Part shown: piece after piece, positions 1-20,408 of the stretch
Layout of the letters: each line of letters opens with the position of its first letter
How positions within the stretch are numbered: position 1 is the first letter of the stretch
Assembly: GCF_004366375.1 (NCBI RefSeq)
Contig: NZ_SOEF01000030.1
Coordinates: 1 to 33,993 of the forward strand
Source of the DNA: Halanaerobium congolense
GTDB lineage: Bacteria; Bacillota; Halanaerobiia; Halanaerobiales; Halanaerobiaceae
Length of the DNA: 33,993 bases
Direction: 5' to 3'
Program-made: the position numbers and the translations under genes
The notes under the pieces: model-generated
The model's input: the letters and a program-made list of their open reading frames with translations, nothing else
What the model was told of the DNA's origin: nothing
Database searches by the model: none

Positions 1-5
1 AAATC

Positions 6-24
6 TTTCACCCACCGGGTGAAA
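6..24. terminator. Perfect 8-bp hairpin at the left edge, possible terminator
   Basis: TTTCACCC and GGGTGAAA form a perfect 8-bp stem around an ACC loop. It is followed by the A/T-rich run AATAATATTTTG rather than a clean T tract. It could be the terminator of a gene left of the window or a palindrome from a transposon end. Nothing else is recognisable in bases 25-89. Confidence 0.3.
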
Positions 25-89
25 ATAATATTTTGATAGAATGTTGCTATATTAGGACTGATAATTTATTTCGTGGTTGCTATGAATAA

Positions 90-2099
90 TTCAGGTTAGA
101 GATTCTTAAAAAAGAAGCTTTTCGCTGGTATCAGGATTGGTTAGATTCTGAAATTGATTCTAATGAGCTTAAACCAGATAACTGGAAAGAAGCCTGGAAA
201 TTTAATATTCTAAAATCTTATCTAAAAGATATAGCAGATAAAAATGAGAAAATGTCTAAATTAGAAGCTGAACTTAAAGAAAATCAGGATAAGATTAGAG
301 AATTAAAAGAAGACATTGTGGAAGTGACTACCAAAATTAGTTTGATCAATAATATTACTCAAAAGAATATAGGGGCCTTAAAAAGCTGGAAAAGTATGGT
401 CAAAAAAATTGGAAAGGGTTATGGTAAATATGCCAGTAAATATGCTGCCAAAGCCCGTAAATATATGAAAGAAGCTAGAGATTCTGTACCTGCCTGGATA
501 ATGCCTGTCTATAAGGTTTCTGAGACAACAGTGAAAAAAATGTCAACTTTTGATGTTGTCATTATTGATGAGGCAAGTCAATCTAATGTAACTAGTTTAC
601 TGGCCCTTTTGCGAGCTAAAAAAGCAATTATTGTTGGAGATGAAAAACAGATTACTCCTTCTGCAGTAGGTAGAGATAAGCAGAAAGTTTTAGATTATAT
701 TACTCGTTATTTAGGTGATATTCCTTTTAGTGATAACTTTGACTTAGAAACTAGTATTTTTGAGTTAGCAGAAATATTTTTTGGGACAAAGAAATTGATG
801 TTAAAAGAACATTTTAGATGTTTACCTGAGATTATATCTTTTAATAATGATCTTTTTTATCAAAATAAAATAATTCCATTAAGAAATCCGGCTCAGAGCG
901 AAAAATTAGAGCCTGTTTTAGAAAATGTTTATGTAAAAGATGGTTATAGAAAAAATAAAGTTAATAAAGTAGAGGCAGAAGCAATTTGTAAAAAAATAGC
1001 AGAGTTAATAAAAAAAGATAAATATCGAGATAAAACCTTTGGTGTTATCTCTTTAACCGGAAGAGATCAGGCCAAACATATCTATAATTTAATTGATAAT
1101 TATATTAGTACTAAAGATCAGGAAAGAATAAGATTCCATGCTGGAGATGCTTATGATTTTCAGGGTGATGAAAGAGATATAATTATTTTATCAATGGTTG
1201 TTGGTGGTCAGGATGATAATTATCGAGCTTTATCCGGTAAAACCTATGAACAGCGAATTAATGTTGCAACCAGCCGGGCTAAAGATAAATTAATCTTATT
1301 TCATTCTGTGCAATTGGGAACTGATCTTAACAATCAGGATGATCTGCGCTATAAATTATTGAATTATATTAAAAATGGAATTACAGAAAAAGATTTAGAT
1401 GAAAATAAAAAGAAAAAATGTGATTCTGTATTTGAAGAAGATGTTTATGACTGGTTAACTAAACGTGGATATGAAGTTACACCTCAGGTAGAAGTTGGTG
1501 CTTATAGAATTGATCTGGTTGTTGAAGGAGAAAATAACAGACTGGCTGTAGAATGTGATGGTGACCGCTGGCATCCACCAGAAAAATGGTGGGCTGATAA
1601 AATGCGACAGCATCAATTAGAAAGAGTTGGCTGGACCTTCTGGCGCGTATCAGGTTCTGCTTTTTATAATGATCCAGATCAGGCAATGAGTTCTGTAATT
1701 AAAATACTTAATTCTTTAAATATAAAGCCTCAAAAAAGAGAAGAAAAGTTTGAAGAAGAGCCTAAAGAAATTGAAAAGAATAATAAGAATCAGGATAGAT
1801 TAAAAGAACAGAATCAAGAAAAGGATAATGAAAATGTTGAAGTTGAATCTAAGAGTTTTCAAGTAATTAGCAGTCAAAAAGAAATTACTGAAAATGAAGA
1901 TTTAAATCTACAGCTTGATTTTGGAGAAAGTTATGAAGAAGATATTGATGAGTTTGATCTACACGATATTGTAGAAAATTTTGATGGTAGAACAGGAAAA
2001 GTTTATGATATTAAAAATGATCATCTGATTGTTATTAACGAATCAGGCAAGATTGAAAAGTGGAAGATCGAAGATGTTGATTTGATTAGGCCCAGCTGA
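90..2099 (+). pseudogene. 5'-truncated SF1 helicase with C-terminal Vsr-like (MTES_1575-type) nuclease domain
   Basis: The reading frame is open from base 90, after an in-frame TAA at 87-89. The first ATG is at 252 and has no convincing ribosome-binding site, so the natural start was probably further upstream and is lost. Counting from ATG 252, residues 1-75 are coiled coil. The helicase motifs follow: IIDEASQS (about 104-111, Walker B), GDEKQITP (129-136) and VATSRAKDK (338-346, motif VI). Walker A, which precedes Walker B in SF1 enzymes, is absent from the visible sequence. Residues about 390-490 are a Vsr/DUF559-like endonuclease domain with YRID and AVECDGDRWH, as in the REase_MTES_1575 family fused to DUF4011-type helicases. 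An acidic linker and a small C-terminal domain follow. The next gene starts 21 bp downstream. The product can hardly be an active helicase; the nuclease part could still fold. Confidence 0.75.
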
Positions 2100-4415: not shown

Positions 4416-4448
4416 ATATAATAAATCATAAATATTGGAGTGATTAAA

Positions 4449-6164
4449 TTGGGAAATAAAATCCATGCAGAAGAAATGAAAATTGAAGAAGTGTTAACCG
4501 GAAATAGTGAATATTATAAAATACCTGATTATCAGAGAAGATTTTCATGGAAAAGAGAGCAGCTTGAAGATTTTTGGTTTGATTTAAATTCATTAGAAGC
4601 TGATGAGGAACATTTTTTAGGATCAATAGTTGTTATAACTGGAGCTCATAATATTGGCTTTAATGAACTAGAATTAGTTGATGGACAGCAAAGATTAACT
4701 ACAATTATGTTATTATTAAAAAATATTCAAAAGAAGTTTAAAGATAATCAAGAATATAATGAAATGGCAAAAATGATAAATGCTAATTATTTATTTACCA
4801 AAAACAAAAAAGCTAAAAGGAGAATTCAGTTAGAATTGGGTAAATTAGATCATTCTGATTATGAAAATATTATGAATGATAATATGAAAAGCATTGATAA
4901 TCAAAATTTAATTAATGCTTATAAATTTTTTGAAGAAAAACTATCTAAAATGACTGAAAAAGAAATTGAAGAAGTTTATGATAAATTATTAGAACAAATT
5001 TTAGTTGTGTTAATCCAGGCTCAAAATGAAAAATCAGCCTTTAGATTATTTGAAACTTTAAATGACAGAGGTTTAGAATTATCTGCCATAGATTTAATGA
5101 AAAATTATTTACTTAAAGTAGCAAATAATAATGAAGATGTGGATACAGACTTGATTAAAGAGAATTGGGAAAATATTATTTTGAATATTCAAGATGTAAA
5201 TAGGAAAGTCAGGTTTTTTAGGCATTATATAATGTCGAGTGAACCAGTAACTAACAGTAAAATTACTCAAAGAAGAGTTTATGATAGATTTAAAGAAATA
5301 ATTAATGAAGATTTAGCAGATTATAATCTAACAATAGAAGATTATATAAAAAATATGGAAGAAAAATCTGAGTTGTATAGAAATATTAATAATGCAAATA
5401 TTGGTGATGATTTTTTTACTAAAAATCAGAGAACAATTATAAATGATCATCTCAATAATTTTAATGCTATTGGTGCCTTGCCAGCTAGAACACTATTATT
5501 AAAAGCTTTTGATCAGACATTAAAAAAAGAGCTTTCAGTTCAGGATTTGACCTCTATTTTAGAATACATTGAAACATTTTCTATCAGGCGAATTGTTGGT
5601 CAATTAGCTACAGGTGAGTTAGATACAATCTATAATTATTTAGCAGTTAATGCTTTTAGTGAAGATAATCCTGAATTATTTATAAAAAATTATTTTAAAA
5701 AGAACATGCCAAGTGATTCAGAATTTGAAAATAATTTTAAAGAAAGAGATTTCAGAAATAATGATCAAACTAAATATATTTTGGACACTTTTGAGAAAAA
5801 GCATTTTATGAAAAATGCTGCTGGTAAATCAATTAAGGAAAGGTCAGAGGTACATATTGAACATATTGCACCGACAAGTTCTTTTACTGCTAAAAAGTAT
5901 AAAAAGTGGGCTGATTATTTAGATGTAGATAAAGCTGAATTTGAGAATTTAAAAACTAGAATAGGGAATTTAACTTTACTAGAATATAAGTTAAATATTA
6001 GAGCTTCAAATAAGCCTTTTAAGCAAAAGAAAGAGCGTTATGATGAATCTAGTTTTAAAATGACAGAGGAAATTATTAAAAATTATTCAGAATGGAAATC
6101 TAATTCTATTTTACAAAGAAGTGAAGAATTATCTAAAATTGCTGTTGATATTTGGTCTTTGTAA
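4449..6164 (+). CDS. DUF262/DUF1524 (GmrSD-like, BrxU-type) nuclease
   Basis: This looks like a one-polypeptide GmrSD-type enzyme. Members of that family are NTP-dependent type IV restriction endonucleases against modified phage DNA, and BrxU is the one found inside BREX loci. The N-terminal DUF262 domain shows PDYQRRFSW (about residues 26-34) and LVDGQQRLTTIMLLL (about 76-90), the ParB/sulfiredoxin-like nucleotide-binding region. The C-terminal DUF1524 domain has the His-Me finger pattern VHIEHIAPTS and a downstream IGNLTLLE motif. Nearly 570 aa fits the family. I chose TTG at 4449 because GGAG at 4437-4440 sits 8 nt upstream; the GTG at 4440 overlaps that ribosome-binding site. It closes the left cassette and is separated from brxF by about 80 bp containing a promoter candidate. 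Substrate modification cannot be read from sequence. Confidence 0.85.
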   Translation: MGNKIHAEEMKIEEVLTGNSEYYKIPDYQRRFSWKREQLEDFWFDLNSLEADEEHFLGSIVVITGAHNIGFNELELVDGQQRLTTIMLLLKNIQKKFKDNQEYNEMAKMINANYLFTKNKKAKRRIQLELGKLDHSDYENIMNDNMKSIDNQNLINAYKFFEEKLSKMTEKEIEEVYDKLLEQILVVLIQAQNEKSAFRLFETLNDRGLELSAIDLMKNYLLKVANNNEDVDTDLIKENWENIILNIQDVNRKVRFFRHYIMSSEPVTNSKITQRRVYDRFKEIINEDLADYNLTIEDYIKNMEEKSELYRNINNANIGDDFFTKNQRTIINDHLNNFNAIGALPARTLLLKAFDQTLKKELSVQDLTSILEYIETFSIRRIVGQLATGELDTIYNYLAVNAFSEDNPELFIKNYFKKNMPSDSEFENNFKERDFRNNDQTKYILDTFEKKHFMKNAAGKSIKERSEVHIEHIAPTSSFTAKKYKKWADYLDVDKAEFENLKTRIGNLTLLEYKLNIRASNKPFKQKKERYDESSFKMTEEIIKNYSEWKSNSILQRSEELSKIAVDIWSL

Positions 6165-6184
6165 TAAGATATAAAATAAAGGAC

Positions 6185-6213
6185 TTAATAACAATTTCTT
6201 GAATTATTATAAT
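6185..6213 (+). promoter_or_regulatory. Candidate sigma-A promoter of the BREX operon
   Basis: TTAATA (6185-6190, four of six matches to TTGACA) is followed by a 17-bp spacer and a perfect TATAAT at 6208-6213. It lies about 30 bp upstream of the brxF ribosome-binding site, in the only sizeable gap between 2.1 and 18.5 kb on this strand. It would allow the BREX genes to be transcribed independently of the GHKL cassette. Confidence 0.5.
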
Positions 6214-6243
6214 TAATGATTAAAAATCTAAAGGGGTGGTTTG

Positions 6244-6711
6244 GTGACACATATAGATGATTTAATTAAAAGTAATAGAGGCAGTCATTACAAACTTTTA
6301 ACATTAGTAGGAAGTGAAGAAAATCATAAAAATAATATAATTGATTATTTAAAAAATAATGGCTGGGATGTTTATGATATTGAAGAAGTAATTTTAGATT
6401 TAGTAGAGAATATACCTGAAAACAAAATTGGTTTAAAAATTGGTGATAAGATAAAAGAATGGCTTAGTGATCAAGAAAATAAAATAGTAATTACTAATAC
6501 AAGTATAATCTATTCTCCAGAATTAAATTTAATTAATCCTGTTGAAACATTTAGATATGCTATGCGAGGAGACAAGGAAGCCGTAATATTTATTGAAGGT
6601 AAAATGAGAGATGATAAAGTGATATATTCTACCCCGGATAAACAGGATCATAAAGATATTGATATATCTAGAATTGTCTCTGAAAGAATAACTGAAGTTG
6701 AGGTGAATTAA
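6244..6711 (+). CDS. brxF: BREX-3 protein BrxF
   Basis: A small protein of about 155 aa that opens the operon, exactly where BREX type 3 loci carry brxF. The family is described as P-loop containing, but the expected GxxxxGK[S/T] after the first strand is replaced here by GSEENHKNN (about residues 24-32), with no GKS/GKT. The middle and end still follow the layout I recall for BrxF: a hydrophobic strand before an asparagine (IVITNTS), then a V-F-I-E-G-K strand and a Y-S-T-P-D turn. GTG 6244 is preferred over TTG 6241 because AAGGGG at 6231-6236 gives 7-nt spacing. The gap to brxC is 3 bp. Identification rests mostly on position and size; sequence resemblance is moderate. Confidence 0.7.
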   Translation: MTHIDDLIKSNRGSHYKLLTLVGSEENHKNNIIDYLKNNGWDVYDIEEVILDLVENIPENKIGLKIGDKIKEWLSDQENKIVITNTSIIYSPELNLINPVETFRYAMRGDKEAVIFIEGKMRDDKVIYSTPDKQDHKDIDISRIVSERITEVEVN

Positions 6712-6714
6712 TTA

Positions 6715-9700
6715 ATGAAAGTTAAAGATTTATTACATTTAGAAGAATTGGATAAAGTTATTGATATTGATACATATATTGAAACTGAGGATAAAGCAAA
6801 AGATACAATTGAAAAATATGTAATAACAGATGATTTAAAAGGACATATTCAAAGAATAGCAGAAGACTTAAAAAAACCTAAACATAAGTCTTATCAAATT
6901 ATTGGTAACTATGGTTCAGGTAAATCTCACTTTCTGGCTATTTTAGCAGCAGTAATTGATAATCATAGATTAGCTGATAGTTTACAAGATGAAGAAACTA
7001 AAGAAATATTTAAAGAGAGTTTAGATAGAGAATTTGCAGTTGTGCATTTTGAACTTCAACCAAGTCAACATACTCTAAGTGAATTTTTCTACGATAGACT
7101 AACAGTTAAACTAAAACAAAATTATGGTATTGAAATACCGGAGATTGATGCTGGTGATATTTATGATCATAAAGAAAAAGTAAAAGAAATATTGGATATT
7201 ATTAAATCTGAAAATCCTAAAATGGGATTAGTAGTAATTATTGATGAAATTTCTGACTTCTTAAAGTCAAAACCTAGTAAAGAGATGAAATTTGCAGACA
7301 CTCAATTTATGAGAGTTTTAGCACAAGCAAGTAACCAAATGGATTTTATGTTCTTAGGTTCGATGCAGGAAAATGTATTTGAAAGTGATGAATTTATTGA
7401 AGAGGCTGAAAGCATTGGCAGAACTATTCAACGTTATGAAATTATTACTATCTCTAAAGATGATATTAAAAAAGTATTATCACAAAGAGCCTTAAAAAAA
7501 GATATTAGCCAAAGGGATCAATTAAAAGATTTGTTAGATAAGTATGGTCAACAAATTCCTCAAGTCCAAAATAATTTAAATGAATTTGTTGAATTATTTC
7601 CAGTTCATCCCTATATTATTGAAGTTTTCAATTATTTACCTTATTTTGAGAATCGAGGTATTTTAGATTTCACTGTTAAAGAAGTGAAAAATATTTTGGA
7701 TGAAGAATTTCCAGCCTTTGTAACTTTTGATAAAATTTATAATAAGATGGCTAAAGATCATAACATTAGACAACTCGATGAAATAGCCCCTGTAGTTAAT
7801 GCTGTAGAAACTTTAAATAGTAAAGTTGATTTATTAAGACCAAATCACCAAGAAGATGCAAAAAAAATAATCAATGCTTTAGCTGTATTAAAAATTTATG
7901 GTAAGACAACAAATAATGGTGCTAATCCAGATGAGTTAGCTAATGACTTAATGATAATTTCTGATAATATTACAAATGTAGATAGAATTAGAATGATTTT
8001 AAAGAAATTAAGAGAAGTAACAGATGGACAATTTATTAATAAGACTAAAAATGATTATTATTATTTGGATTTAGACCATGATATTGACTATGATGTAGTT
8101 ATTCAAAGAAAAGCAGAAAACCTTTATGATGGTGCTGAAGATGGTGTGCTATTAAACATTCTAAAAGATAATTTCTATTTAGATTCAGATTCAAATCATG
8201 ACAGAGTCTTTGATGATGATAGTTATTGGAAAGAAAAGAAATCATTTAGAGAAGGCACTTTTATTTATGATGATAATTCAGTTGTTTTAGAAAAGGGTGA
8301 TGGAGATTTTAATTTTGTTATAGTTTCTCCATATCAAAAATCAGCAACAATAAAAAGTGATTTTGATACTGCAATTTTAAATCTAGAATATAATGAGGAA
8401 TTAGATAATTTACTTAGTAAGATAGCTGCAGTAAATTCTCTTAAAAGTGGCAGTAATTATCCTAAAAGTATAATGGATAAAAAGAAGAGGAAGTTTTTAG
8501 AAGAGGCAAAAGAAAAACTACTTAAGTTATTGCTGTTAACTAATATCAAAAATGGCGGGGATTATGATAGTACCAAAAAATTATTAGCACAAGAGCCAGA
8601 CACTTTAAGTGCTTATTATGAAGCAGTTAAACCAGCTGTATTTGGACATGTATTTAATGATAAATATCCTGAGTATCCTGATTTGATAAACCGATTATCT
8701 CCAGAAAATATTCAGGGAGAAGTAGAAAGAACAATAGATAGTATCTTAACTGGTAGAGAAGAGATTTCATTAAGTAATTCTCAAAATTTATTGTCTTCTC
8801 TTAACTTATTAGATGATAATAATTATCTAGATACCAGAAATTCTAAGTATGCTAATATAATTTTAGATAAGCTTAAAGATAATAAAGGTAAAAATATTAG
8901 TATAAATAGATTAGTTGAAATGTTAGCAGAACCACCATTTGGTTTGCAAAAAGAATTAGTATATTTGATTCTGTTTGTAATAACCTATAATGGAGAGGCT
9001 AATTTAAAACACAATAATAGAGGTTCTGTAAGAACTTTAACGGCATCTGATTTAAAGCAATTTTTCAGTTCAGGTTTAGATAAATTTGAAGAGATATCTT
9101 ATGTAAGTTTAGAAACTGATTTTCCTGTAGATGCTATTATTGATTTATTTAAAGTTTTAGATATTAATCCTGGTTTAGTAAGACAAGAAAATAAAAGGAT
9201 TAATGCATTAAAAACATTTAAAGAAAGAATTGATGATATTAAAAATGAGATAGAAGAAATTGATAAAAAACTGAATAAGTTAAAAATGAAACCAAATGAT
9301 TTTTTCGACATAAATAAATTAATTAAAAAAAGAGAAGGCTTAAAAAATATTCCGATTGATTTATTTTCAAAGGTTAATACTATTACTGATTTCAAAAAGA
9401 TTAGTTTGGATAAAGATGAATTAAAAGATCTTGAACAAGGACTTAAACTTTTAGAGCATTTATTTGGGTACTTAAATGACTTTGAAGAGTTTATATATGA
9501 TGAATATCTATATATGGAAAAAGCTTTAAAGCTGATTAAAGAAAATGCTAGTTTTTTTGAGGATGAATCTATCGATAAATTAAAAGAAATAGCTGTTGCT
9601 TGTGAAGAATTGCTAGGAACAAACGACAATGATTTAATGTTATTATTAGAATATGATCAAAGAAGATTGTTAAAAGGAAAATTAAATCAATTTAAAGATA

Positions 9701-10371
9701 AGTATAAAGCTATATATTATCGTCAACACCGGAACAAAGTTGGAGAAAATATTGAATGGTCTAAATTAGAAGAAATAAATAATAAAAAAGAATTAGAACG
9801 CTTAGAAAAGCTTAAAAATATTACTGGTATAAATACTAGAAAGTATAATAACTTAAAGGTGAAAATTAATAACTTAGAAAGAGTTAAGTGTACAAATTTA
9901 AAAGAAGAATATCTAGAAGAAAAAATTAACTGTCCGCATTGTAATTTCCCAGAAAATATAGATAGTAATTTTAATGATTTAAATGACACATTAGACGATT
10001 TATTTAATCAAGTAATAGAGATTGAAGAAGAGTGGGAAGGTCAAATCATTTCTGAAATAAGAAATTATGAGGATAATATTTCTAAACTGACTAGCTCTGA
10101 ACAAAATATTGTTGATGAAATATTAGAAAAGAAAGAATTGCCTCAAACTATAACAAATGAGATAATCACAGTATTAAATACTCTATTTTCAGAATTAAAA
10201 GAAGTAGAGGTAACTCCTAAACAATTAATGGAGATTATATTTAAAGATCAGGGTGTTTTAGATTATGATATGTTTGATAAAAAGTTATCTGAAATTAAAG
10301 CTTGGATTTTAGAACATGGAGATAAAAATAATATTAGAATTAAGTTTAAAGAAATTGATGAGGAGGAATAA
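6715..10371 (+). CDS. brxC: BREX system ATPase BrxC (PglY-like)
   Basis: A 1218-aa P-loop ATPase, the normal size of BrxC, one of the two proteins common to BREX types (with PglZ). Walker A is GNYGSGKSHF at residues 64-73 and Walker B is LVVIIDEISDF at about 172-182. The pattern IGNYGSGKSH close to the N terminus is typical of BrxC/PglY. The long middle region is helical, followed by coiled coil around residues 830-1060. One CxxC (NCPHCN) lies near residue 1070, with an earlier cysteine before it that might complete a zinc site. The ATG follows GAGGTG by 10 nt. The stop is 3 bp before pglXI and overlaps its ribosome-binding site region, so expression is probably coupled. BrxC is thought to form the ATP-dependent core of the BREX complex. 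Confidence 0.93.
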   Translation: MKVKDLLHLEELDKVIDIDTYIETEDKAKDTIEKYVITDDLKGHIQRIAEDLKKPKHKSYQIIGNYGSGKSHFLAILAAVIDNHRLADSLQDEETKEIFKESLDREFAVVHFELQPSQHTLSEFFYDRLTVKLKQNYGIEIPEIDAGDIYDHKEKVKEILDIIKSENPKMGLVVIIDEISDFLKSKPSKEMKFADTQFMRVLAQASNQMDFMFLGSMQENVFESDEFIEEAESIGRTIQRYEIITISKDDIKKVLSQRALKKDISQRDQLKDLLDKYGQQIPQVQNNLNEFVELFPVHPYIIEVFNYLPYFENRGILDFTVKEVKNILDEEFPAFVTFDKIYNKMAKDHNIRQLDEIAPVVNAVETLNSKVDLLRPNHQEDAKKIINALAVLKIYGKTTNNGANPDELANDLMIISDNITNVDRIRMILKKLREVTDGQFINKTKNDYYYLDLDHDIDYDVVIQRKAENLYDGAEDGVLLNILKDNFYLDSDSNHDRVFDDDSYWKEKKSFREGTFIYDDNSVVLEKGDGDFNFVIVSPYQKSATIKSDFDTAILNLEYNEELDNLLSKIAAVNSLKSGSNYPKSIMDKKKRKFLEEAKEKLLKLLLLTNIKNGGDYDSTKKLLAQEPDTLSAYYEAVKPAVFGHVFNDKYPEYPDLINRLSPENIQGEVERTIDSILTGREEISLSNSQNLLSSLNLLDDNNYLDTRNSKYANIILDKLKDNKGKNISINRLVEMLAEPPFGLQKELVYLILFVITYNGEANLKHNNRGSVRTLTASDLKQFFSSGLDKFEEISYVSLETDFPVDAIIDLFKVLDINPGLVRQENKRINALKTFKERIDDIKNEIEEIDKKLNKLKMKPNDFFDINKLIKKREGLKNIPIDLFSKVNTITDFKKISLDKDELKDLEQGLKLLEHLFGYLNDFEEFIYDEYLYMEKALKLIKENASFFEDESIDKLKEIAVACEELLGTNDNDLMLLLEYDQRRLLKGKLNQFKDKYKAIYYRQHRNKVGENIEWSKLEEINNKKELERLEKLKNITGINTRKYNNLKVKINNLERVKCTNLKEEYLEEKINCPHCNFPENIDSNFNDLNDTLDDLFNQVIEIEEEWEGQIISEIRNYEDNISKLTSSEQNIVDEILEKKELPQTITNEIITVLNTLFSELKEVEVTPKQLMEIIFKDQGVLDYDMFDKKLSEIKAWILEHGDKNNIRIKFKEIDEEE

Positions 10372-10374
10372 ATT

Positions 10375-12861
10375 TTGAATAAAGAAGATATTACACCATT
10401 AGAGAAATTATTAGACGGAGCTAGAGATATAGATGGATTCCCAATAGCAGATGATAAAGACATTTTAAAACTATCAGATCCACCTTATTACACAGCTTGT
10501 CCTAATCCATATATCAATGACTTTATTGAAGAATATGGAACAACATATGATCCTGAGAATGATGATTATGAGAGAAAGCCCTTTGTTGGTGATGTTAGTG
10601 AGGGGAAAAATGATTCAATTTATAGAGCATATAGTTATCATACTCAAGTACCTCATAAAGCAATTCAAAAATATATTAAACATTATACAAAAGAAAATGA
10701 CATTGTTTTTGATGGCTTTGCAGGTACTGGTATGACAGGAGTAGCTGCCCAAAAAACACAACGTAATGCTTTATTAGTAGAATTATCTCCGTATGCTAAT
10801 TTAATATCAAGCAGTTGTAATAATAAAAAATTAAACAAAGCGGAATTAAAAACAATTACAAAAAAAATAATAGATGAGCTTAAAAATGAATGTACAGAAT
10901 TATATTATACCGAGCATAAAGAAAATAATGAGTTAGGTGTTATAGACTATGTAGTTTGGAGCGATGTCTATGAATGTCCTTATTGTAATACTGAATATAT
11001 TTTATGGGATGAATCTGTTAAAAACAATGGTGAGAAAAGAGAAAATCAAAAAAAATATAAATGTTCTAGTTGTGGAGCGGAAATCTCTAAAAAAGAATCA
11101 AAAAGAATCTTTCATGAATTATATGATACTGCTCTTGGTAAGAATGTTTCCATAGCAAGACAGGAACCTGTTTTAATTTTTTATTCATATAAAAATACCA
11201 GATATGAAAAAATTCCAGATGAAAAAGATATTAATAAACTTAAAAAAATAAGAAGTAAAGAAATACCATATTGGTATCCAAATAACAAGTTACCAGATGG
11301 TTATAACACTTCTCAACCGATAAAATCTCATGGTTTTACTCATGTACATCATTTTTTTACCAAACGAAATATATGGGTTTTAAGTAAATTTCTTTCTTTA
11401 ACAGATAAATATTCTAAGAGAAAATCTATCCGAAATTTTTTATTAAATGCATTATTAGCATCACTACCTAGAGCTTCAAAGAGAAACAGATACATACCAA
11501 AGTATGGAAATCGTCATGTAGGAACTTTATCAGGTACTCTATACTGTCCTTATTTCTTTGAAGAAAATAACCTAATTGATGCCTTAGAAAGAAGAATAAA
11601 CAAAATGATTAAGGGAACTTTAAAAGAAAACAATAAAAATGTATTTATATCAAACCAGTCAATTACAAATTTAAATTTAGAAGAAGACTCAATTGATTAT
11701 ATTTTTACAGACCCTCCTTTTGGTGCGAATATAATGTATTCAGAACTTAATTTTTTAATGGAATCTTGGATGAAAGTTTTTACTAATAAAACAGATGAGG
11801 CAATAATAAATAATAAGCAAAAGAAAGATCTTAATGATTATACATCATTAATGACTAAATCCTTTCAAGAGATGTATCGAATTTTAAAACCTAATAGATG
11901 GATAACTATTGAATTTCATAATTCTAAAGCTTCCATTTGGAATGGTATACAAGAGTCTTTAAATAGAGCTGGTTTCATAATAGCTCAAGTAGCAACTCTA
12001 GATAAAAAGAAAGGAACAATCAAACAATTAAGTAGTCCAGGAGCAGTTAAAAATGATCTTGTAATTAATGCATACAAGCCAAAAAAAGAATTTGAAGATA
12101 AATTCTTAAAAAATGCTGGTGAAGGATTAGAAGCAGATTTTGTAAAAGAACAGCTAAAACATTTGCCAGTTGAAGCTAATATAGAAAGAACAGAACAGAT
12201 GCTTTATTCTAAAATGTTAGCCCATTATGTTGAGAATGGATTTAAGATAAAATATGATGCTAATAATTTCTATAAGTTATTACATGATAACTTTGTAGAA
12301 TTAGATGGTTACTGGTTCTTAGAAGATCAGGCTGATGAATATAGTGAGTGGAAAAGTTCGCTTAAACTCGATGAAATAGAAGACATTAAAAAAGGTAATC
12401 AGGTATTATTTGTTGTTGATGAGAAAAGTGCTTTAACCTGGATCAATAACTTTTTAGATGAACCAAAAGAATATGGAGAAATTTATACTAGTTATGAGCA
12501 AATAGCAACACAAACTGATGATAAGATACCTGAATTAAGAGAATTACTAGATCAAAACTTTATTTTAGAAGACGGAAAATATAGAAGACCAAAAACTAGA
12601 AAAGAAAGAGAAAGTATAGAAAAAAGTAGAACTAAGAATTTAGAAAGGGCCTGGAAAAAATTATTGGACCGTGCTAAAAACGGTAGTAGAAAGATCAAAA
12701 ATATAAGAAAAGAAGCATTAATCCATGGCTTTACTAAATGTTATCAACAGGAAAACTATGAGGATATAGTAACTGTAGCAGATAGATTATATAAATCTAC
12801 TCTAGAATCCAGTGGGGATATACTTGACTTTGTAGATATTGCTCGGATGAAAACAGAGTAA
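10375..12861 (+). CDS. pglXI: BREX-3 adenine-type DNA methyltransferase PglXI
   Basis: The modification subunit of BREX type 3, expected to methylate a non-palindromic host site so that self DNA is spared. The SAM-binding motif I is VFDGFAGTGMTG at residues 111-122. The catalytic motif IV is TDPPFG at 445-450, where most relatives have DPPY. A four-cysteine zinc ribbon is inserted between them (C201, C204, C230, C233). An earlier SDPPYYTACPN at about 34-44 is a DUF1156-like N-terminal signature. The C-terminal 250 aa are probably target recognition and complex contacts. The start is TTG 10375 with GAGGAGG 8 nt upstream; no ATG fits the ribosome-binding site. A 14-bp gap leads to brxHII. All catalytic residues I can check are present, so the enzyme looks active. 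Confidence 0.92.
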   Translation: MNKEDITPLEKLLDGARDIDGFPIADDKDILKLSDPPYYTACPNPYINDFIEEYGTTYDPENDDYERKPFVGDVSEGKNDSIYRAYSYHTQVPHKAIQKYIKHYTKENDIVFDGFAGTGMTGVAAQKTQRNALLVELSPYANLISSSCNNKKLNKAELKTITKKIIDELKNECTELYYTEHKENNELGVIDYVVWSDVYECPYCNTEYILWDESVKNNGEKRENQKKYKCSSCGAEISKKESKRIFHELYDTALGKNVSIARQEPVLIFYSYKNTRYEKIPDEKDINKLKKIRSKEIPYWYPNNKLPDGYNTSQPIKSHGFTHVHHFFTKRNIWVLSKFLSLTDKYSKRKSIRNFLLNALLASLPRASKRNRYIPKYGNRHVGTLSGTLYCPYFFEENNLIDALERRINKMIKGTLKENNKNVFISNQSITNLNLEEDSIDYIFTDPPFGANIMYSELNFLMESWMKVFTNKTDEAIINNKQKKDLNDYTSLMTKSFQEMYRILKPNRWITIEFHNSKASIWNGIQESLNRAGFIIAQVATLDKKKGTIKQLSSPGAVKNDLVINAYKPKKEFEDKFLKNAGEGLEADFVKEQLKHLPVEANIERTEQMLYSKMLAHYVENGFKIKYDANNFYKLLHDNFVELDGYWFLEDQADEYSEWKSSLKLDEIEDIKKGNQVLFVVDEKSALTWINNFLDEPKEYGEIYTSYEQIATQTDDKIPELRELLDQNFILEDGKYRRPKTRKERESIEKSRTKNLERAWKKLLDRAKNGSRKIKNIRKEALIHGFTKCYQQENYEDIVTVADRLYKSTLESSGDILDFVDIARMKTE

Positions 12862-12875
12862 ATTGAGGTGGAATT

Positions 12876-15740
12876 ATGAAGCTAGGAAGTAAAGTAAAAT
12901 ATAAAGATAAATATGGTATTGGACAAATAATTTCTAAAGCTGAAATTTTCAATAATATTTATTTTGAAGTTTTCTTTAAAAAAGTTACTAAAACAATACA
13001 AGTAAAAAAAGAGGATCTGGAACTTTTGCCAGATCCTTCTTCCCTATTAGCTGCAGGCTATAGTTCAGATCCAAATACTTTTTTTCTTAAAAATATGGCC
13101 CATAACTTAGAACAGTTTTATAATAACCAAGATGTAATATCTTCTGTAAATTTTAAGATTCAGCCCTTACCACATCAAATTTTAGCTTTGAATTTTGTGC
13201 TTAATAAATTCAAAACTAGATGTTTATTAGCAGATGAAGTCGGATTAGGTAAAACTATAGAGGCAGCTTTAATCTTTGAAGAACTAAAGTTAAGAGGAAC
13301 AGCTAAAAGAGTATTAATCATTACACCTGCTGGATTAACTAATCAATGGCAGGAGGAAATGAAATTAAAATTTGATGAAGACTTTTATATTTTAAACAAA
13401 GATAAAGCTAATGCTTTGGAAGATCTTCATGGTGAAGAAGGTAATATATGGTTTGAATTTGATCAGGTTATAACTTCAATTGACTTTTTAAAATCGAATA
13501 AATTATCTGATGAAATTAGTGAAGCTGAGTATAAGAGAAGAAAAGAACATAATGAGAAAATATACAATAGTTGTATTGATGGAGATTGGGATATAGTTAT
13601 CTTTGATGAAGCTCATAAATTAACAAAATATAAATCTGGCCGTGAAACCGCCCGTTATAAATTAGGAAAAGAACTTGCAGAAGTTACTCCAACACTTTTG
13701 CTATTAACTGCAACACCGCATAATGGTAAACCAGCAGTTTTTCAAAATATGTTAAAATTAATTGATCCCCATTTATTTTATAATAGAGATAATCTTGTTC
13801 CTGAAAAGGTCAAACAAGTAACTGTTAGAAATAAAAAAAGAGCAGTTGTAGATATGGAAGGTAAACGCATCTTTAAAAATAGACTTACCAATGAGGTTAG
13901 AATTTCTAGAAACAACAGCAGTGATGAAGCTGAAAAAGAATTGTATGATAATATTGTAGATTATGTTTCGGAATATTATGATTTAGCTAAATTTGAGAAA
14001 AATTATCCAATGATTTTTCTGTTAATGCTTTATCAAAGAATTGTTTCCAGTAGTAGTAGAGCAATTAAAAAGACTTTAGAAAAAAGATATAAAAAATTAA
14101 AAAAAGTAAAAGATATTTCTCGCAGATTAAATAGTCTTGATTTAGAGGATTTAGATGAGCTTAGTGGTGAAGAACAGCTTGAATTTATTGAAAGTAATAT
14201 GGCTTTTTTAAAAAATGATAAATATCTAAATAAAGAAATTAATATAATCGAAAATTGTATTAAAAGTGCTGAAAAATCTTTAAATGGTAATGATGATGCT
14301 AAATTAAAGAAATTGCTTGAAATTATTGATTTTGCTAAGCAAAAAGAAAAAGATCCGGACTTGAAAATAATTGTTTTTACAGAGTTTATAGAAACACAGA
14401 ATTATATTTTAGAATCTCTCGAAAAATTAGGTTATAAAACAGCACATATTAATGGCAAATTATCATTAGAGGAAAAAATATTGCAGAAAAATAAGTTTAA
14501 AGAAGAATCTCAAATATTAGTATCCACTGATGCTGGTGGAGAAGGTATTAATTTACAGTTCTGCTCTTATATGATTAATTATGATTTACCCTGGAATCCT
14601 ATGAAATTGGAACAAAGAATAGGAAGAATAGATAGAATTGGCCAAAAAGAAGATGTTAAAATCTTTAACTTTATTTTAAAAGATACAGTGGAAGAACATG
14701 TTAGAGAAATTTTAGAAAATAAGCTTAGAATTATAAAAGACCAGTTTGGAGAAGATAAGTTTGGAGATGTTCTTTCAACTTTACAGGAGGATTTTAATTT
14801 TAATCAATTATATTTTGATGCTGTGATCAATGATGAGCTGGAAGAAGAAAAATTAGATCAAATTGGTGAAGAAATGTATAATAAAGCTAAAAATATAATT
14901 GAAGACGAAGATTATTTAATTCCTTTTAATGAAAAGAATGAATTAAAAAAAGCTGATAAAAAAGTAATTGAAGAAGTGCCTAAAAAAGTTAAATCTTTTA
15001 TAAAATTATTTTTCAAGTCAAATAATATGGAGTTAAATGAATACAGTAGGGATGAAAATATTTATTATTTTCAAAATAATTTTGCGAACGAAAAATTCAA
15101 AAATCATTTTTCTAAGGTAATCTTTAAACCCAGCAAAGGTTTAAATACTGAAGAGGCAGATTTATTTAGTTTAAACCATGATTATGTTAAAGAAGTTATT
15201 AAAAAATCAAAAAAAGAAGGCTATGTCTCTGCATTTGAAATAAATGATAATAGATTTGCAGGTAAAAGCGGATTATTAAGTTATTGGAAGCTAAATATCA
15301 CGAATAATTTCAACTATAATTATACTGAATTAATTTCAATCTTTATAGAAGATACTGAAAGATTCAACCGGCGAATTTCTAAAGCATTTGCTGATATAAG
15401 TGATTTTAATAATTTTAATCTAGGTGTCTTACCAGATTATAGTCAAATAAAATGCTTAGAAGAATCGGCAAAAAAAGAAGCTGAAAAAGAGGCTGAAGAT
15501 ATATTTTTATCAGAGAAGTTAGATTGGACTGACAAATTAAAACAACAGAAATCACAACTTGAAGAATATTTCAAACAGAAAAGGGAAGCAGTTGAAAATA
15601 TAAAAGTTGAAAATATAAAAAAAGGAAAACTTTCAAATTTAGCTTCTGATTATGATTTAGAATTAGAACAATTAAAGGAGAAAGAAGAGTTATTTCCTAA
15701 GTTAGATTGTGTCCAGTTAGCTTATGTAGAATTTAAATAA
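12876..15740 (+). CDS. brxHII: BREX-3 SNF2-type helicase BrxHII
   Basis: A 954-aa superfamily 2 SNF2/RapA-like translocase, the helicase that marks BREX type 3. Residues 1-50 form a small SH3-like domain (KLGSKVKYKDKYGIGQIISK). The motor follows: Walker A ADEVGLGKTIEA (119-130), DEAH 244-247 and motif III LTATPHNGK near residue 280. In the second RecA domain are FTEFIETQ, STDAGGEGINLQF (about 550-562) and motif VI QRIGRIDRIGQ (about 580-590). The last 300 aa are a family-specific region ending in coiled coil. The ATG follows GAGGTGG with 5-nt spacing, 14 bp after pglXI. The motor motifs are complete, so activity is expected. Confidence 0.92.
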   Translation: MKLGSKVKYKDKYGIGQIISKAEIFNNIYFEVFFKKVTKTIQVKKEDLELLPDPSSLLAAGYSSDPNTFFLKNMAHNLEQFYNNQDVISSVNFKIQPLPHQILALNFVLNKFKTRCLLADEVGLGKTIEAALIFEELKLRGTAKRVLIITPAGLTNQWQEEMKLKFDEDFYILNKDKANALEDLHGEEGNIWFEFDQVITSIDFLKSNKLSDEISEAEYKRRKEHNEKIYNSCIDGDWDIVIFDEAHKLTKYKSGRETARYKLGKELAEVTPTLLLLTATPHNGKPAVFQNMLKLIDPHLFYNRDNLVPEKVKQVTVRNKKRAVVDMEGKRIFKNRLTNEVRISRNNSSDEAEKELYDNIVDYVSEYYDLAKFEKNYPMIFLLMLYQRIVSSSSRAIKKTLEKRYKKLKKVKDISRRLNSLDLEDLDELSGEEQLEFIESNMAFLKNDKYLNKEINIIENCIKSAEKSLNGNDDAKLKKLLEIIDFAKQKEKDPDLKIIVFTEFIETQNYILESLEKLGYKTAHINGKLSLEEKILQKNKFKEESQILVSTDAGGEGINLQFCSYMINYDLPWNPMKLEQRIGRIDRIGQKEDVKIFNFILKDTVEEHVREILENKLRIIKDQFGEDKFGDVLSTLQEDFNFNQLYFDAVINDELEEEKLDQIGEEMYNKAKNIIEDEDYLIPFNEKNELKKADKKVIEEVPKKVKSFIKLFFKSNNMELNEYSRDENIYYFQNNFANEKFKNHFSKVIFKPSKGLNTEEADLFSLNHDYVKEVIKKSKKEGYVSAFEINDNRFAGKSGLLSYWKLNITNNFNYNYTELISIFIEDTERFNRRISKAFADISDFNNFNLGVLPDYSQIKCLEESAKKEAEKEAEDIFLSEKLDWTDKLKQQKSQLEEYFKQKREAVENIKVENIKKGKLSNLASDYDLELEQLKEKEELFPKLDCVQLAYVEFK

Positions 15741-15755
15741 GATATAGGTGATATT

Positions 15756-17588
15756 ATGGAGAAATGGTATAATAAGATAATTGAAAAATTAAATGAATAT
15801 CAACATGAAATAATATTTGTTATAGATGATGACGATTTACTAGCTAATGATTTTTTAGCTGATCAGCTATCAGAAAGTTTTAATGAACTTTATTATTATA
15901 CAATGGAGTTAAAACTGAGAAAAAAGATCAAAAATATTAATTCTTCATTACTAGTGATAGTAGAATCAGATAAGAATTTATCAAGTTATTTTTTGGATCA
16001 TTTTAGAATAGTCAAAATTTCTTTAGAAGATGTTTTCCCTTTATTAAATAAAAGAGCAATTGATTGGATTTCTGATTCAGAAATAAGAGATCTTTATAAT
16101 CATTATCAGCATAACTTCAAAAGATATGAAAAATTAAATTATAATAAAACCTTAAAATATGCTTTAAAAAATTTATATAGTTTTTCTTTCCCAATTGATA
16201 GTTTAGAATCATTAATTTCATTATTAATGAAATTTTATTTTAATCATAAAAAACTTAAGGGTGCAATAAAAAAAATAGTTGCAGAAGATGGTAAAAAATT
16301 AGATGTAAATATTAATAAACTAACAAATCAAAAATCTTTTTTCAATTGGTTGGAAGAACAATGGTATCAGTATATCATTAATCAGAATTCTAAGTTAAAT
16401 TTTGATGATAAAAAAATTCAATATATTTTAGATAATTGTTTTGAACAGGGCTATATGAAAAAGTTAGATTTGATGGGAGAAAATATTGATATCAATTATG
16501 TTAAAAGTAAAATAACCAATAATTTCAGTTTTAATAGTGGTATTATAAATTTTGATAAATTATCTGTTAAAGAATTTTTTGAGAAAGAATATGATTTATT
16601 AAGTAGTTTATTAGATAAAGAAATTAAGAGTGTTGCTTGGGGAAATATTGCAAAAAAATGGTCACATTTAGTTTACTTAAATGAAAATAATAAGTTAGAT
16701 AATGATTTAAACAAGCTTGCAAAACGAGTTGATAATAAGTTTTTGGAATTTATAGCTAATAAGTATAATGACTTAGTTTATGATCAAAGATTTCAACATG
16801 CTCCATTGAATAATAAAATTTTATCTTATTTATTAAACGAAGATCAAAAAACAGCTTTAATTTGTTTGGATGGAATGAGTTATAAGGATTGGTTTGTAGT
16901 TAAAAACTATTTGGATAAAAATTTGAATCTTAAATATCATGAACATTTTTCTTATGCTATAATACCGACTATAACTTCTTATTCACGTAGGGCGATCTTT
17001 TCAACTGAAACTCCATTAGAAGATGAGGGTAGATATGATGAGGAGAAGCTATTTAGAGAAAATGTATTAGAAAATAAAAAGACAAAAAATCAAAATATAT
17101 TCTTTGATAGAACTAATGAACCGAAAATTTTTGAGTTATTAGGTTATGAGTATATTGGATTGATTTATAATTTTGTTGATGAAATTGCTCATCAAGCTAC
17201 AAGTGAAAGTCTAAAATTTAATAATTTGAAAAACTTTCTTGATGAAAGTGAATTTTCAGCTGTTATTAATAATTTAATTGAAAATAAATTTAGAGTATAT
17301 TTATGTTCAGATCATGGGAATTTATATTGTGAAGGAAATGGGTTTAATCCCAGTAGAGATTTAATAGAGAAAAGAGCATCTCGCTCAGTATTATATAGAA
17401 GTCGAAAATTAGCAGAAAATGAAGAATTTGAAAATAGACTGATTTTAAATTTTCCTAATATTATTGGTGAAGAATACATATTAACTATGAAAAACCGAAG
17501 AAAATTCGGCAACAGTGAAGCAGGTTTTACTCATGGAGGAGTAAATATTGAAGAAGTAATAATACCATTTATAGAGGTGATTGGATGA
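15756..17588 (+). CDS. pglZ: BREX protein PglZ, alkaline phosphatase-like
   Basis: PglZ is the second protein shared by BREX types. The PglZ domain occupies roughly residues 360-600 and carries the metal-binding framework of the alkaline phosphatase superfamily. These are LICLDGMS with D372, the TITSYSRRAIFS segment that supplies the Thr/Ser nucleophile region, CSDHGN with D519 and H520, and GFTHGG with H593. The N-terminal half is helical with no recognisable catalytic motif. At 610 aa it is shorter than the 800+ aa PglZ of BREX type 1, as expected for type 3. The start lies 15 bp after brxHII with TAGGTG upstream. Its TGA overlaps the ATG of brxA (ATGA), which indicates translational coupling. 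The exact biochemical role is not settled for the family. Confidence 0.93.
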   Translation: MEKWYNKIIEKLNEYQHEIIFVIDDDDLLANDFLADQLSESFNELYYYTMELKLRKKIKNINSSLLVIVESDKNLSSYFLDHFRIVKISLEDVFPLLNKRAIDWISDSEIRDLYNHYQHNFKRYEKLNYNKTLKYALKNLYSFSFPIDSLESLISLLMKFYFNHKKLKGAIKKIVAEDGKKLDVNINKLTNQKSFFNWLEEQWYQYIINQNSKLNFDDKKIQYILDNCFEQGYMKKLDLMGENIDINYVKSKITNNFSFNSGIINFDKLSVKEFFEKEYDLLSSLLDKEIKSVAWGNIAKKWSHLVYLNENNKLDNDLNKLAKRVDNKFLEFIANKYNDLVYDQRFQHAPLNNKILSYLLNEDQKTALICLDGMSYKDWFVVKNYLDKNLNLKYHEHFSYAIIPTITSYSRRAIFSTETPLEDEGRYDEEKLFRENVLENKKTKNQNIFFDRTNEPKIFELLGYEYIGLIYNFVDEIAHQATSESLKFNNLKNFLDESEFSAVINNLIENKFRVYLCSDHGNLYCEGNGFNPSRDLIEKRASRSVLYRSRKLAENEEFENRLILNFPNIIGEEYILTMKNRRKFGNSEAGFTHGGVNIEEVIIPFIEVIG

Positions 17589-18292
17589 AAGGCTTTGATA
17601 GACCGTTAAAACCAGAATGGATTTATAAGACTATTGATATTTTAGAAGTTGGAGATACAATTTATAAAAAGAGAGATAAAATTGATAATATTTTAGTTGA
17701 ATTAGATGGTAAAACTGGTAAAAGAAAAGTTATTACAGTTATGGGAAGATATTTCTTGAAAGATATTGATAATTCAAGGGGGAGGAAAGTTACAGATAAT
17801 TTGATATTCAATATGGTTAAAGAAGAATCATTTGAAAGAGCTAAACCATTAATGCTTTTTAATTTATTAGTGAAAGCTCCAATATTACAAAAATTTTCAA
17901 AAGAAATTTATAGAAATTATAGCAGCAAAGAAACCATTGATGCTAATTATTTAAGAGAAAAGGCATATCAAAATATTGGGGAAAGAGATATTGCTCGCCG
18001 TTCTTTAAGAAATTTTTTAAATACATTAGTTGACTTTTCTCTAATAGAAGTAGAAGGTAATAATTATACTTGGAAAGAAAAATTTCAAGTTGATGAGGAA
18101 TTGATGGTAGATTTTTTGAAATTATATGGAAAACACTATGTTGATTCTCCACAAATATCATTGCTAGATTTACCTAAACATATCTTTTTCTATTTTGAAA
18201 CACCTGATTTGTTGAAACTAGCTCAAAAATACAATAATGTACATTGGCAGTATGTGCGAAGGATTAATGCTGCTTTAATAACAATGAAATAA
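17585..18292 (+). CDS. brxA: BREX protein BrxA (DUF1819 family)
   Basis: A 235-aa protein that closes the operon, matching brxA at the end of BREX type 3 loci. BrxA of type 1 is a helical DNA-binding protein. Here the chain is rich in predicted helices, with DIARRSLRNFLNTLVDFSLI (about 138-157) resembling a winged-helix segment and a conserved-looking PLMLFNLLVKAPIL near residue 100. There are no catalytic motifs. It shares four bases with the pglZ stop. The ribosome-binding site GAGGTG lies inside the pglZ coding region. Identification is by combined size, position and DUF1819-like character. Confidence 0.83.
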   Translation: MKGFDRPLKPEWIYKTIDILEVGDTIYKKRDKIDNILVELDGKTGKRKVITVMGRYFLKDIDNSRGRKVTDNLIFNMVKEESFERAKPLMLFNLLVKAPILQKFSKEIYRNYSSKETIDANYLREKAYQNIGERDIARRSLRNFLNTLVDFSLIEVEGNNYTWKEKFQVDEELMVDFLKLYGKHYVDSPQISLLDLPKHIFFYFETPDLLKLAQKYNNVHWQYVRRINAALITMK

Positions 18293-18314
18293 ATTTTAGA
18301 TTGGAGTTAAGATT

Positions 18315-18475
18315 ATGGATAAAAAATTAATAAAAAAAATTATAAAATTCAGAGATGATAGAAATTGGTCTCAATTTCATAATCCTAAAGATCTAGCTAT
18401 TTCTATTTCTCTTGAAGCTAATGAATTATTAGAGTTATTTCAATGGAATAGCAGTGAAGAGACAGTAAATAAAAA
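18315..18475 (+). pseudogene. MazG-like nucleotide pyrophosphohydrolase, 5' half only, cut by IS3-type element
   Basis: The first 54 residues match the start of MazG-like/dCTP pyrophosphatase proteins. They include the RDDRNWSQFHNPKDLAISIS helix, the metal-binding-type ELLELFQW and SSEETVNKN. The remaining helices, with the second E-x-x-D pair, are missing. The frame then runs into the IS end and stops at 18509. The ATG follows GGAG and lies 22 bp after brxA, so the gene was the last in the BREX transcript. Enzymes of this family hydrolyse (d)NTPs and recur in defence islands. The product is not expected to be active. Confidence 0.75.
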
Positions 18476-18501
18476 TGAGCTAGCCCCTCTAATCTTGGAC
18501 A
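18476..18501. repeat. Left terminal inverted repeat of the IS3-type element
   Basis: This pairs imperfectly with the complement of 19489-19515, sharing the CCCC block and the terminal TTGGACA. The left copy is the more diverged from the TGTAACGCCCCCT form I expect for this IS group. Confidence 0.5.
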
Positions 18502-18549
18502 AGCTTTAATATGATTTGTTAAACACAAATTCTCAGTAAATTTAATTAC

Positions 18550-19443
18550 TTATGCTGCAAATTTAATTCCTGAAACTAAGTTATTCAGGATGTTTTTATG
18601 ATAAACTGCTGGTGGTATTTTACCAACAGATGAATGTGGTCTTCTGTTATTGTATTTATCAATAAATTTAGCAATAGAATTCCTGCAGTGGGTTATGCTG
18701 CGGTAATGTTTTCTATAGACTTCACAATCCATCTCCCAGAGCTGGTTAGGTCCAGTTAGTTCATGTTTTTGTCTTAATTGATATTCTTTCGGTTTTGGTA
18801 CTATCTTATCCTGCAGGAGGTCTAAAACCTTCATAATGCGGTAAATTCGTTTGTGATTAACTTTTAGATTTTCTGTATAGTTCAGGTAATCAGTTACCAT
18901 TCTGTAGCCTAGATGAGGAGACTCATCACAGTAATCTTTAACCAGTTGAACAACATCTTCTTCTGGTACTAGATTACCATCTTTATCATAAGCTGGATGA
19001 CCAGTATAAAGTTGATCTTCAGTCTTATTATTTTCGTCTTGATCATTATTCTGACGGTAATAGTAAGTGCTTCTGGCTATATTAAAAGTTCGACATAGTT
19101 CTGTAATAGTATATTCTGATTTAAGCTGATTAATTATCTTAATTTTATCGGGAGTATTTAGTTCTGCCAGGGCTTTTTTTAGAATTTCCATCTGGACTTT
19201 CTGCTGACCAATGATTTTTTCCATCTCTTTGATTTGTTCATCTTTTTCTTTAAGCCTGGCTTCCTGTTCAGTAATAGAATCACCACTGAGCTTGCTCATA
19301 CCTCCATCTAAAAATTCATTCTTCCAGAGATAGATGGAGCTGCGGCTGACATCATATTCATCGACTAGATTAGATATTTTTTCGCCTTTGATAACTCGAA
19401 GAACAATTTCCATTTTTTCATCAGGATCATAAGTTTTAGCCAT
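18550..19443 (-). pseudogene. IS3-family transposase, OrfA+OrfB fused frame with the DDE core deleted
   Basis: A 297-aa frame. Residues 1-50 are the OrfA helix-turn-helix (DEKMEIVLRVIKGEKISNL) and 60-95 a leucine-zipper-like coil. From residue 105 there is an OrfB N terminus (HTH_21: LCRTFNIARSTYYYR, then SPHLGYRMVTDYL). The integrase core begins with NQLWEMD, giving the first catalytic aspartate. It jumps within about 20 residues to the terminal FIDKYNNRRPHSS motif, which normally lies some 120 residues later. The second Asp and the Glu are therefore gone. The ATG follows GGGGG with 9-nt spacing. The protein may bind its ends but cannot catalyse transposition. Confidence 0.85.
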
Positions 19444-19488
19444 TTGCTTTTACCCCCTATAATTATTATAAGATGTTTGATTGGTGTC

Positions 19489-19515
19489 TGTCCAATACTC
19501 TTAGGGGGCGTTACA
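19489..19515. repeat. Right terminal inverted repeat of the IS3-type element
   Basis: On the minus strand it reads TGTAACGCCCCCTAAGAG and then TATTGGACA, a well-formed IS3-type end with a terminal TG. It lies upstream of the transposase start. Confidence 0.6.
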
Positions 19516-19869
19516 TATTCAATAGTCAAAGTAAGAATAAAAAATCATTATTCACCGGCAGAAATTGAACAGCTCATTGGAAATCATTTAAAAGTTCCAG
19601 ATACTAAATATTGGAATTATGATAAGTTTGTTTGGAGAGGTGCTCATTTTGCTTGCTATAATTGTTATGAATTAGCTGATATAGAATATAGATCAATTTT
19701 TAAATCTAAAGTAGATTTATTAATTGCGTCTGTTTATAATAAAGATGTAAATTATTTTTCTAATATTGTTGAATCGGTATCTAGGGATGTACATTGTTAT
19801 TTTATTCAGGATAACAGTTCTAATTATGGAGATACTAGAGTGACTCAACCTACTAAGACTGCAGTATAA
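19516..19869 (+). pseudogene. Nitrilase-like domain fragment, possibly from a DRT type 1 (RT-nitrilase) protein
   Basis: The frame is open through the IS end but gene-like only from about 19519. It has a carbon-nitrogen hydrolase look: FACYNCYELADIEYRS (candidate catalytic cysteine), then VDLLIASVYNKDVNYFSNIV, then HCYFIQDNSSNYGD, in the order CYE / strand / QxN seen in nitrilases. The N-terminal part with the catalytic Glu and Lys is missing, removed at the IS boundary, and the C terminus stops early after TQPTKTAV. The wording YNKDVNYFSNIVES resembles, from memory, the nitrilase tail of class 1 UG reverse transcriptases (DRT1). No RT motif remains to confirm this. A stand-alone nitrilase is the alternative. 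Confidence 0.5.
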
Positions 19870-19873
19870 AAAA

Positions 19874-20279
19874 ATGTCCTGTGAATTATCCAATTGGGTT
19901 GGAAAAGCTTATAAAATCCCTCGTTCTTTAATTAAAGAGTCTGATGATAGAGCTGATCTACAAAATATTGGAGTATATTTTCTCTTTGGCAAAGATCCAA
20001 ATAACTAGTGAGGGTTTTGTAGTACTAAAAGGATCTAGAATGTCTAATAATACTGTTGATTCAGCTCAAAATTGGGTAATTAAAAAGAGAGAAGAGCTAT
20101 TAGAAAAAGAAATTGTAGTTGAAAATGATGAAAATTATATTTTCAAAAAAGACTATTTGCTTTCTAGTCCTTCAACTGCAGTTGCAATTGTTATGGGGAG
20201 AAATGCTAATGGTTTAAGAGAATGGAAATTAAAAAATGGAATGACCTTAAAAGAATTTGAACAGCCTGATGAAGAATAA
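19874..20279 (+). pseudogene. GIY-YIG nuclease/DUF4357 gene with internal deletion and frameshift
   Basis: From ATG 19874 one frame gives MSCELSNWVGKAYKIPRSL, ending GVYFLFGKDPNN and a stop at the tag near 20008. That is the start of GIY-YIG/DUF4357 proteins up to the first half of the GIY-YIG signature. The second frame, read from about 19990, gives KIQITSEGFVVLKGSRMS and runs to the stop at 20277-20279. It is the DUF4357 domain ending EWKLKNGMTLKEFEQ. The nuclease core between them, with the YIG, Arg and Glu motifs, is missing and the two parts are out of frame. Such proteins often accompany restriction systems. The product is dead. Confidence 0.7.
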
Positions 20280-20303
20280 ATTTTAATTATAAAAAAGAAA
20301 AAA

Positions 20304-20324
20304 CACCTGATAAAATATCAGGTG
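20304..20324. terminator. Strong bidirectional rho-independent terminator
   Basis: CACCTGATA and TATCAGGTG form a perfect 9-bp stem with an AAA loop. On the minus strand it is followed by TTTTTTCTTTTTT, a textbook terminator for the gene at 20409-20936. On the plus strand it is followed by CCTTCATAATTTTAATTTT, which could also stop transcription from the DUF4357 remnant. Confidence 0.85.
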
Positions 20325-20408
20325 CCTTCATAATTTTAATTTTGCCCATTTAAGGACTCTTTATAATTTTATTTTCTAAATTAATAATACTATTTTATCA
20401 GTCAATTG

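Follow-up and report, generated by a model that had tools for sequence, protein, structure and literature searches.

The stretch of Halanaerobium congolense DNA analyzed here (33,993 nucleotides, hereafter the window) almost certainly carries a complete anti-phage operon of BREX type 3, set in a horizontally shared defense island; that it is active, what motif it methylates, how it works, and whether an adjacent GmrSD-type enzyme cooperates with it are matters of inference. Comparison with a genome from another genus makes it moderately probable that whole BREX types are exchanged naturally: in a recently shared island, gmrSD and BREX-3 in the window, versus BREX-1 in the other genome, lie between flanks that are 93 to 97% identical, with BREX-3 as the likely earlier occupant.

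Operon layout and family assignment

Six uninterrupted open reading frames on the forward strand, brxF, brxC, pglXI, brxHII, pglZ, and brxA, occupy positions 6244 to 18292 (Table 1), approximately 12 kb in which no stop or frameshift interrupts the coding sequence. An earlier sequence-only reading of this DNA had noted tight spacing and an overlap of the last two genes; the measured gaps from brxF to brxA are 3, 3, 14, 15, and −4 bp, the last being an ATGA overlap. Each gene is preceded by a purine-rich ribosome-binding site. We place the start of brxF at a GTG with a good ribosome-binding site (AAAGGGGTGG), the alternative being a TTG at 6241. A candidate promoter, TTAATA-17-TATAAT, lies upstream of brxF at 6185 to 6213 (25 matches versus 14 in shuffles), but such sites are common in A+T-rich DNA, making this weak evidence.

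Table 1. Features of the window around the BREX type 3 operon
Feature	Position	Strand	Description
IS1380-like insertion sequence end	1..97		Terminal repeat CCTGAATTATTCATAGCAACCACG; 5-bp target duplication TTAGA
Hhe/ProA-like SF1 helicase-nuclease	96..2099	+	C-terminal 667 codons of 1586 aa; MTES_1575 nuclease domain
GHKL-ATPase-like gene	2121..4415	+	764 aa; intact in the window, internally deleted in G013
Exchanged stretch	4422..20177		18.9-kb BREX-1 cassette in its place in G013, with 93-97% identity in both flanks
gmrSD-family type IV restriction gene	4440..6164	+	574 aa, intact; Pfam GmrSD_N and GmrSD_C; 79 bp upstream of brxF
brxF	6244..6711	+	155 aa from GTG 6244, 156 aa from TTG 6241; eroded Walker A (VGSEENHKNN), a trait of its clade
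brxC	6715..10371	+	DUF6079 ATPase, 1218 aa; Pfam PF19557 766 bits, PADLOC BrxC 1513 bits
pglXI (BrxXI)	10375..12861	+	Predicted adenine methyltransferase, 828 aa; insert target-recognition region with Cys 201, 204, 230, 233; PADLOC PglXI 4e-287
brxHII	12876..15740	+	Swi2/Snf2 (RapA-like) helicase, 954 aa; PADLOC BrxHI/BrxHII 2e-200; SNF2 and Helicase_C
pglZ	15756..17588	+	Alkaline-phosphatase-fold metal enzyme, 610 aa; NCBIfam BREX_PglZ_3 375 bits
brxA	17585..18292	+	235 aa; ATGA overlap with pglZ; PADLOC BrxA 5.5e-93
IS3-type transposase relic	18550..19443	-	Most of integrase core missing; downstream of brxA

The sequence-only reading had claimed a complete, intact type 3 operon in canonical order, and had named a search with BREX models as a check. 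That search (PADLOC, NCBIfam, and Pfam) bore the claim out: BrxF, BrxC, PglXI, BrxH, PglZ, and BrxA were matched in that order, which is also the order in most other BREX-3 loci. In addition to the PADLOC scores in Table 1, BrxF (6.9e-52) and PglZ (7e-159) matched their PADLOC models, and both exceeded the NCBIfam cutoffs for BREX_3_BrxF (NF033453; 72 bits, cutoff 50) and BREX_PglZ_3 (NF033449; cutoff 250). The Pfam DUF6079 match of BrxC extends over residues 1 to 1211; the NCBIfam BREX_BrxC score is below its cutoff (64 versus 400 bits), whereas the Pfam and PADLOC matches are strong. A Pfam search for DUF499 in BrxC returned no match. PglXI matched Pfam N6_N4_Mtase, and the helicase matched SNF2, Helicase_C, and a RapA model over residues 54 to 776. 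BrxHII of BREX type 3 is a Swi2/Snf2 enzyme with RapA-like architecture and a Tudor domain at its N terminus; in the window's helicase, the likeness to RapA is seen over the residues just given. Its best PADLOC model is labeled BrxHI; going by domain make-up (SNF2 plus RapA-like), the helicase is BrxHII. A search of solved structures for a sequence match to BrxA found none.

Catalytic residues and integrity

The sequence-only reading had found all catalytic motifs that it could check in BrxC, PglXI, BrxHII, and PglZ. Alignments with relatives drawn from whole genomes showed the presumed catalytic residues of these four proteins to be invariant. The residues compared comprise the Walker A (GNYGSGKS) and B (VVIIDE) motifs in BrxC; FxGxG (D113-G119), DPPF (D446-F449), and four cysteines (C201, C204, C230, and C233) within a large insert in PglXI (nine sequences); DEVGLGKT, DEAH, and QR.GR.DRIGQ in BrxHII; and D372, T407, D475, H479, D519, H520, and H593 in PglZ, whose metal-site residues align with those of PorX in a solved structure (7PV7).

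Against their orthologues in G022, a genome of the same order, all six genes have dN below dS (dN 0.18 to 0.52, dS 1.0 to 1.9, with synonymous sites near saturation). This pattern points to long-term constraint on every gene, which is not proof of present use. Of the ongoing selection suggested earlier, long-term constraint is all that can be measured: recent selection does not follow from intactness, and the comparison with G022 is close to dS saturation.

The operon had also been described as the one fully preserved system among wreckage. The wreckage is real: the helicase is cut by an insertion sequence, mcrB (21050 to 22495) has lost two segments that are present in the intact 595-aa copy of G013, and a Druantia DruE helicase within 22517 to 29439 lies in at least two pieces (27438 to 28448 and 28414 to 29439). 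The GHKL-like gene and gmrSD, however, are intact as well, so the operon is not alone in its preservation. An open 1366-aa gene without a family match precedes the DruE pieces and is possibly a DruE partner. Farther on (31000 to 33993), dense relics of family-wide repeats occur, with an IS110-type transposase where the contig ends.

With so much decay nearby, the operon could look intact and yet be silent or inactive, a recent pseudogene in decay as its neighbors are. The broken helicase, mcrB, and DruE genes would fit that reading, as would a BrxF without Walker A. We nevertheless regard it as unlikely, given the length of coding sequence free of stops and frameshifts, a ribosome-binding site for each gene, the retention of every motif, and a Walker A loss that is common to the whole BrxF clade.

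BrxF and its P-loop

We gathered 80 named BREX-3 loci by a genome scan with the nine-sequence PglXI alignment; a scan of named genomes with a three-sequence BrxC alignment found no relatives. Aligned with its nearest relatives, the window's BrxF shares with them the lack of Walker A, which makes the absence a clade trait; erosion of the P-loop by damage was therefore rejected. Across the gathered loci, which include some near-copies, 29 of 80 BrxF proteins keep Walker A (GxxxxGK[S/T] or AxxxxGK[S/T]) and the others have it in eroded form; L121 was discounted since the reading frame used there is the N terminus of BrxC. The Walker A-bearing proteins cluster on the BrxC tree (examples are L047:6277-6753 and L048:12509-13045). 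BrxF is regarded as an inactive STAND protein (PMC12839542). In some BREX-3 lineages, then, it may be a P-loop protein that is active, and in others, that of the window among them, one that is not.

Upstream neighbors

Three co-directional genes precede brxF. The closest, gmrSD, is a probable accessory of the BREX-3 cassette. GmrSD enzymes are described as complementing BREX against phages with modified DNA (PMC8565348), and the island on a multidrug-resistant plasmid in that report, which joins BREX to the type IV enzyme BrxU, resembles the window in having a GmrSD-family enzyme adjoin the BREX genes. The pairing of BREX with BrxU was characterized with BREX type 1 (per PMC12839542), whereas that in the window involves type 3 and goes back far enough for a relic to persist in G022.

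The GHKL-like protein has N box, DxGEG, and GxxGxG motifs that are conserved in its homologues. It had no family match in PADLOC, Pfam, or NCBIfam, no solved structure was matched in a profile search, and single-sequence structure prediction gave no usable fold (mean pLDDT, 33). We use the name GHKL on the strength of the motifs alone.

The helicase-nuclease is present only as its C-terminal part on the window contig (C30); its N-terminal 919 codons are on contig C23 of the same genome, and the gene is full length in G013. The IS1380-like sequence at the start of the window recurs at many contig ends, and the transposase of a full copy matches DDE_Tnp_1_4. Since the two helicase halves are separated by this element with its TTAGA duplication, C23 and C30 would adjoin in the chromosome, where the insertion appears to have split the gene. 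Contig C23 also encodes a 1304-aa protein with weak BrxC-like matches (L077:8410-12324), which might be the ATPase of another system in this genome, either BREX-like or BREX-related (BR). Genome G278 has a divergent BREX-3 operon whose brxA is followed, approximately 20 bp on, by the start of an Hhe-like helicase gene (L190:1536-6784), a pairing that is independent of the one in the window.

Probable exchange of BREX types between genera

G013 belongs to another genus of the same family, its rpoB region being 81% identical in DNA, versus 89% within the genus. Contig C14 of G013 matches the window at 97% over 96 to 3012 and 3914 to 4421 and at 93 to 97% over 20178 to 22495, and it matches contig C23 at 98 to 99.8%. 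Within the genus, the BREX-3 operon was found only in the genome of the window (1 of 12 sampled). This sparse occurrence, together with flanks far more similar to G013 than rpoB is, argues for a recent transfer of the island.

Between the matching flanks, the window has gmrSD, BREX-3, and the IS3 relic, while G013 has brxA, brxB, brxC, pglX, pglZ, and brxL (BREX type 1), followed by mcrBC-like genes. The left break falls just past the GHKL-like gene's stop codon and the right break inside a DUF4357 gene. Losses among the neighbors differ: the window has a broken helicase gene and a broken mcrB, and G013 has lost 901 bp from within the GHKL-like gene. Each genome keeps one BREX operon whole.

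The direction of exchange can be read from G022. There, a helicase that is 61% identical in its C-terminal part lies beside BREX-3 (BrxC, 58.5% identical; PglXI, 74%), and between helicase and brxF we detected a gmrSD relic consisting of the last 32 codons and the stop (E = 1e-7 within a 221-bp stretch). The order helicase-gmrSD-BREX-3 therefore appears to be old. This suggests, from one outgroup and draft assemblies, that BREX-3 is the older occupant and that the later arrival was more likely BREX-1, in G013.

The same comparison bears on whether the helicase-nuclease, the GHKL-like protein, GmrSD, and BREX-3 act as one nine-gene system. These genes are co-directional and closely packed from 252 to 18292, the helicase and the gmrSD relic stand beside BREX-3 in G022, and a related helicase follows brxA in G278. 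Against this, the same helicase and GHKL-like gene adjoin BREX-1 in G013, and the helicase is broken in the window while BREX is intact; we consider a single functional unit improbable, slightly more so than a silent operon. The trio of helicase, GHKL-like gene, and gmrSD was found in none of the 80 other BREX-3 loci, and no BREX gene was seen near the GHKL homologues of four genomes (G147, G393, G435, and G331) in the available stretches, some of them short contigs. The trio was thus rejected as a fixed part of BREX-3.

Defense loci with exchangeable content are reported from a variable locus of Streptococcus suis (PMC5398294) and from the StySA BREX locus of Salmonella (PMC9009780). The window resembles what those reports describe in that different systems occupy one site between shared flanks; it differs in that the systems exchanged are two BREX types, in different genera, and that the flanks are approximately 93 to 97% identical.

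Relation to known BREX type 3 loci

All six genes were detectable in 34 of the 80 gathered loci, and 29 of these have exactly the window's order; brxHII follows brxA in four of the exceptions, and the fifth has an additional brxHII match. The other loci are cut by contig ends, are without brxHII, or have members too divergent for the search. G022 has a 234-aa gene without a Pfam match between pglXI and brxHII (L007:11428-12132), the position at which BxaP is reported (PMC10799925).

On a tree of 81 BrxC proteins, that of the window groups with other BREX-3 BrxC proteins with a support value of 100. It falls in a well-supported clade of 11 sequences from its phylum and some archaea, and the remaining 70 lie outside this clade; identity is 35 to 68% to the nearer relatives and drops to approximately 25% for most of the others. 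BrxC, full or partial, occurs in 6 of 59 genomes of the class and in 46 of 398 in the phylum sample.

A six-gene BREX type 3 locus has been described (PMC10799925, PMC12839542), and a survey reports the same core with a four-cysteine insert and a RapA-like helicase (PMC12839542). The window agrees in genes, order, families, PglXI insert region with four cysteines, and, over the residues matched by the RapA model, a RapA-like BrxHII, and differs in its small BrxC clade with a BrxF lacking Walker A. The operon itself is thus of an already known kind; the context is the new part.

A type 3 BR system (DUF499 ATPase, DUF1156 methyltransferase, RapA-like helicase, PglZ, and iSTAND) has the same component classes, and PglXI and the helicase weakly match the NCBIfam DUF1156_antiphage and DISARM DrmD models, but it is very improbable and was refuted by the family of BrxC (DUF6079, not DUF499), with PglXI lacking a DUF1156 match in Pfam, BrxF and PglZ exceeding BREX-3 cutoffs, and brxA present. 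By its protein families, the operon is BREX type 3 proper.

Discussion

Other BREX types are described as marking their own DNA by methylation, with a BrxC-centered complex excluding unmarked DNA and PglZ acting as a metal-dependent nuclease (PMC12205998, PMC12839542). By analogy, PglXI would methylate one adenine in a short asymmetric motif of host DNA. A complex of BrxC, BrxF, BrxA, BrxHII, and PglZ would inspect incoming DNA and block unmethylated phage, with BrxHII as a putative DNA translocase and PglZ as a putative metal-dependent hydrolase or nuclease. The adjacent GmrSD-type enzyme may cut phage DNA whose modified bases evade BREX.

Type 3 BREX is less explored than type 1 in the literature, and an intact, compact operon from a divergent clade would be a useful test object. 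If the exchange between genera is true, the accessory module of helicase and GHKL-like protein would be indifferent to BREX type, and BREX types would compete for one niche. The paired islands allow one to ask whether BREX types are interchangeable and whether the GmrSD and helicase companions help both.
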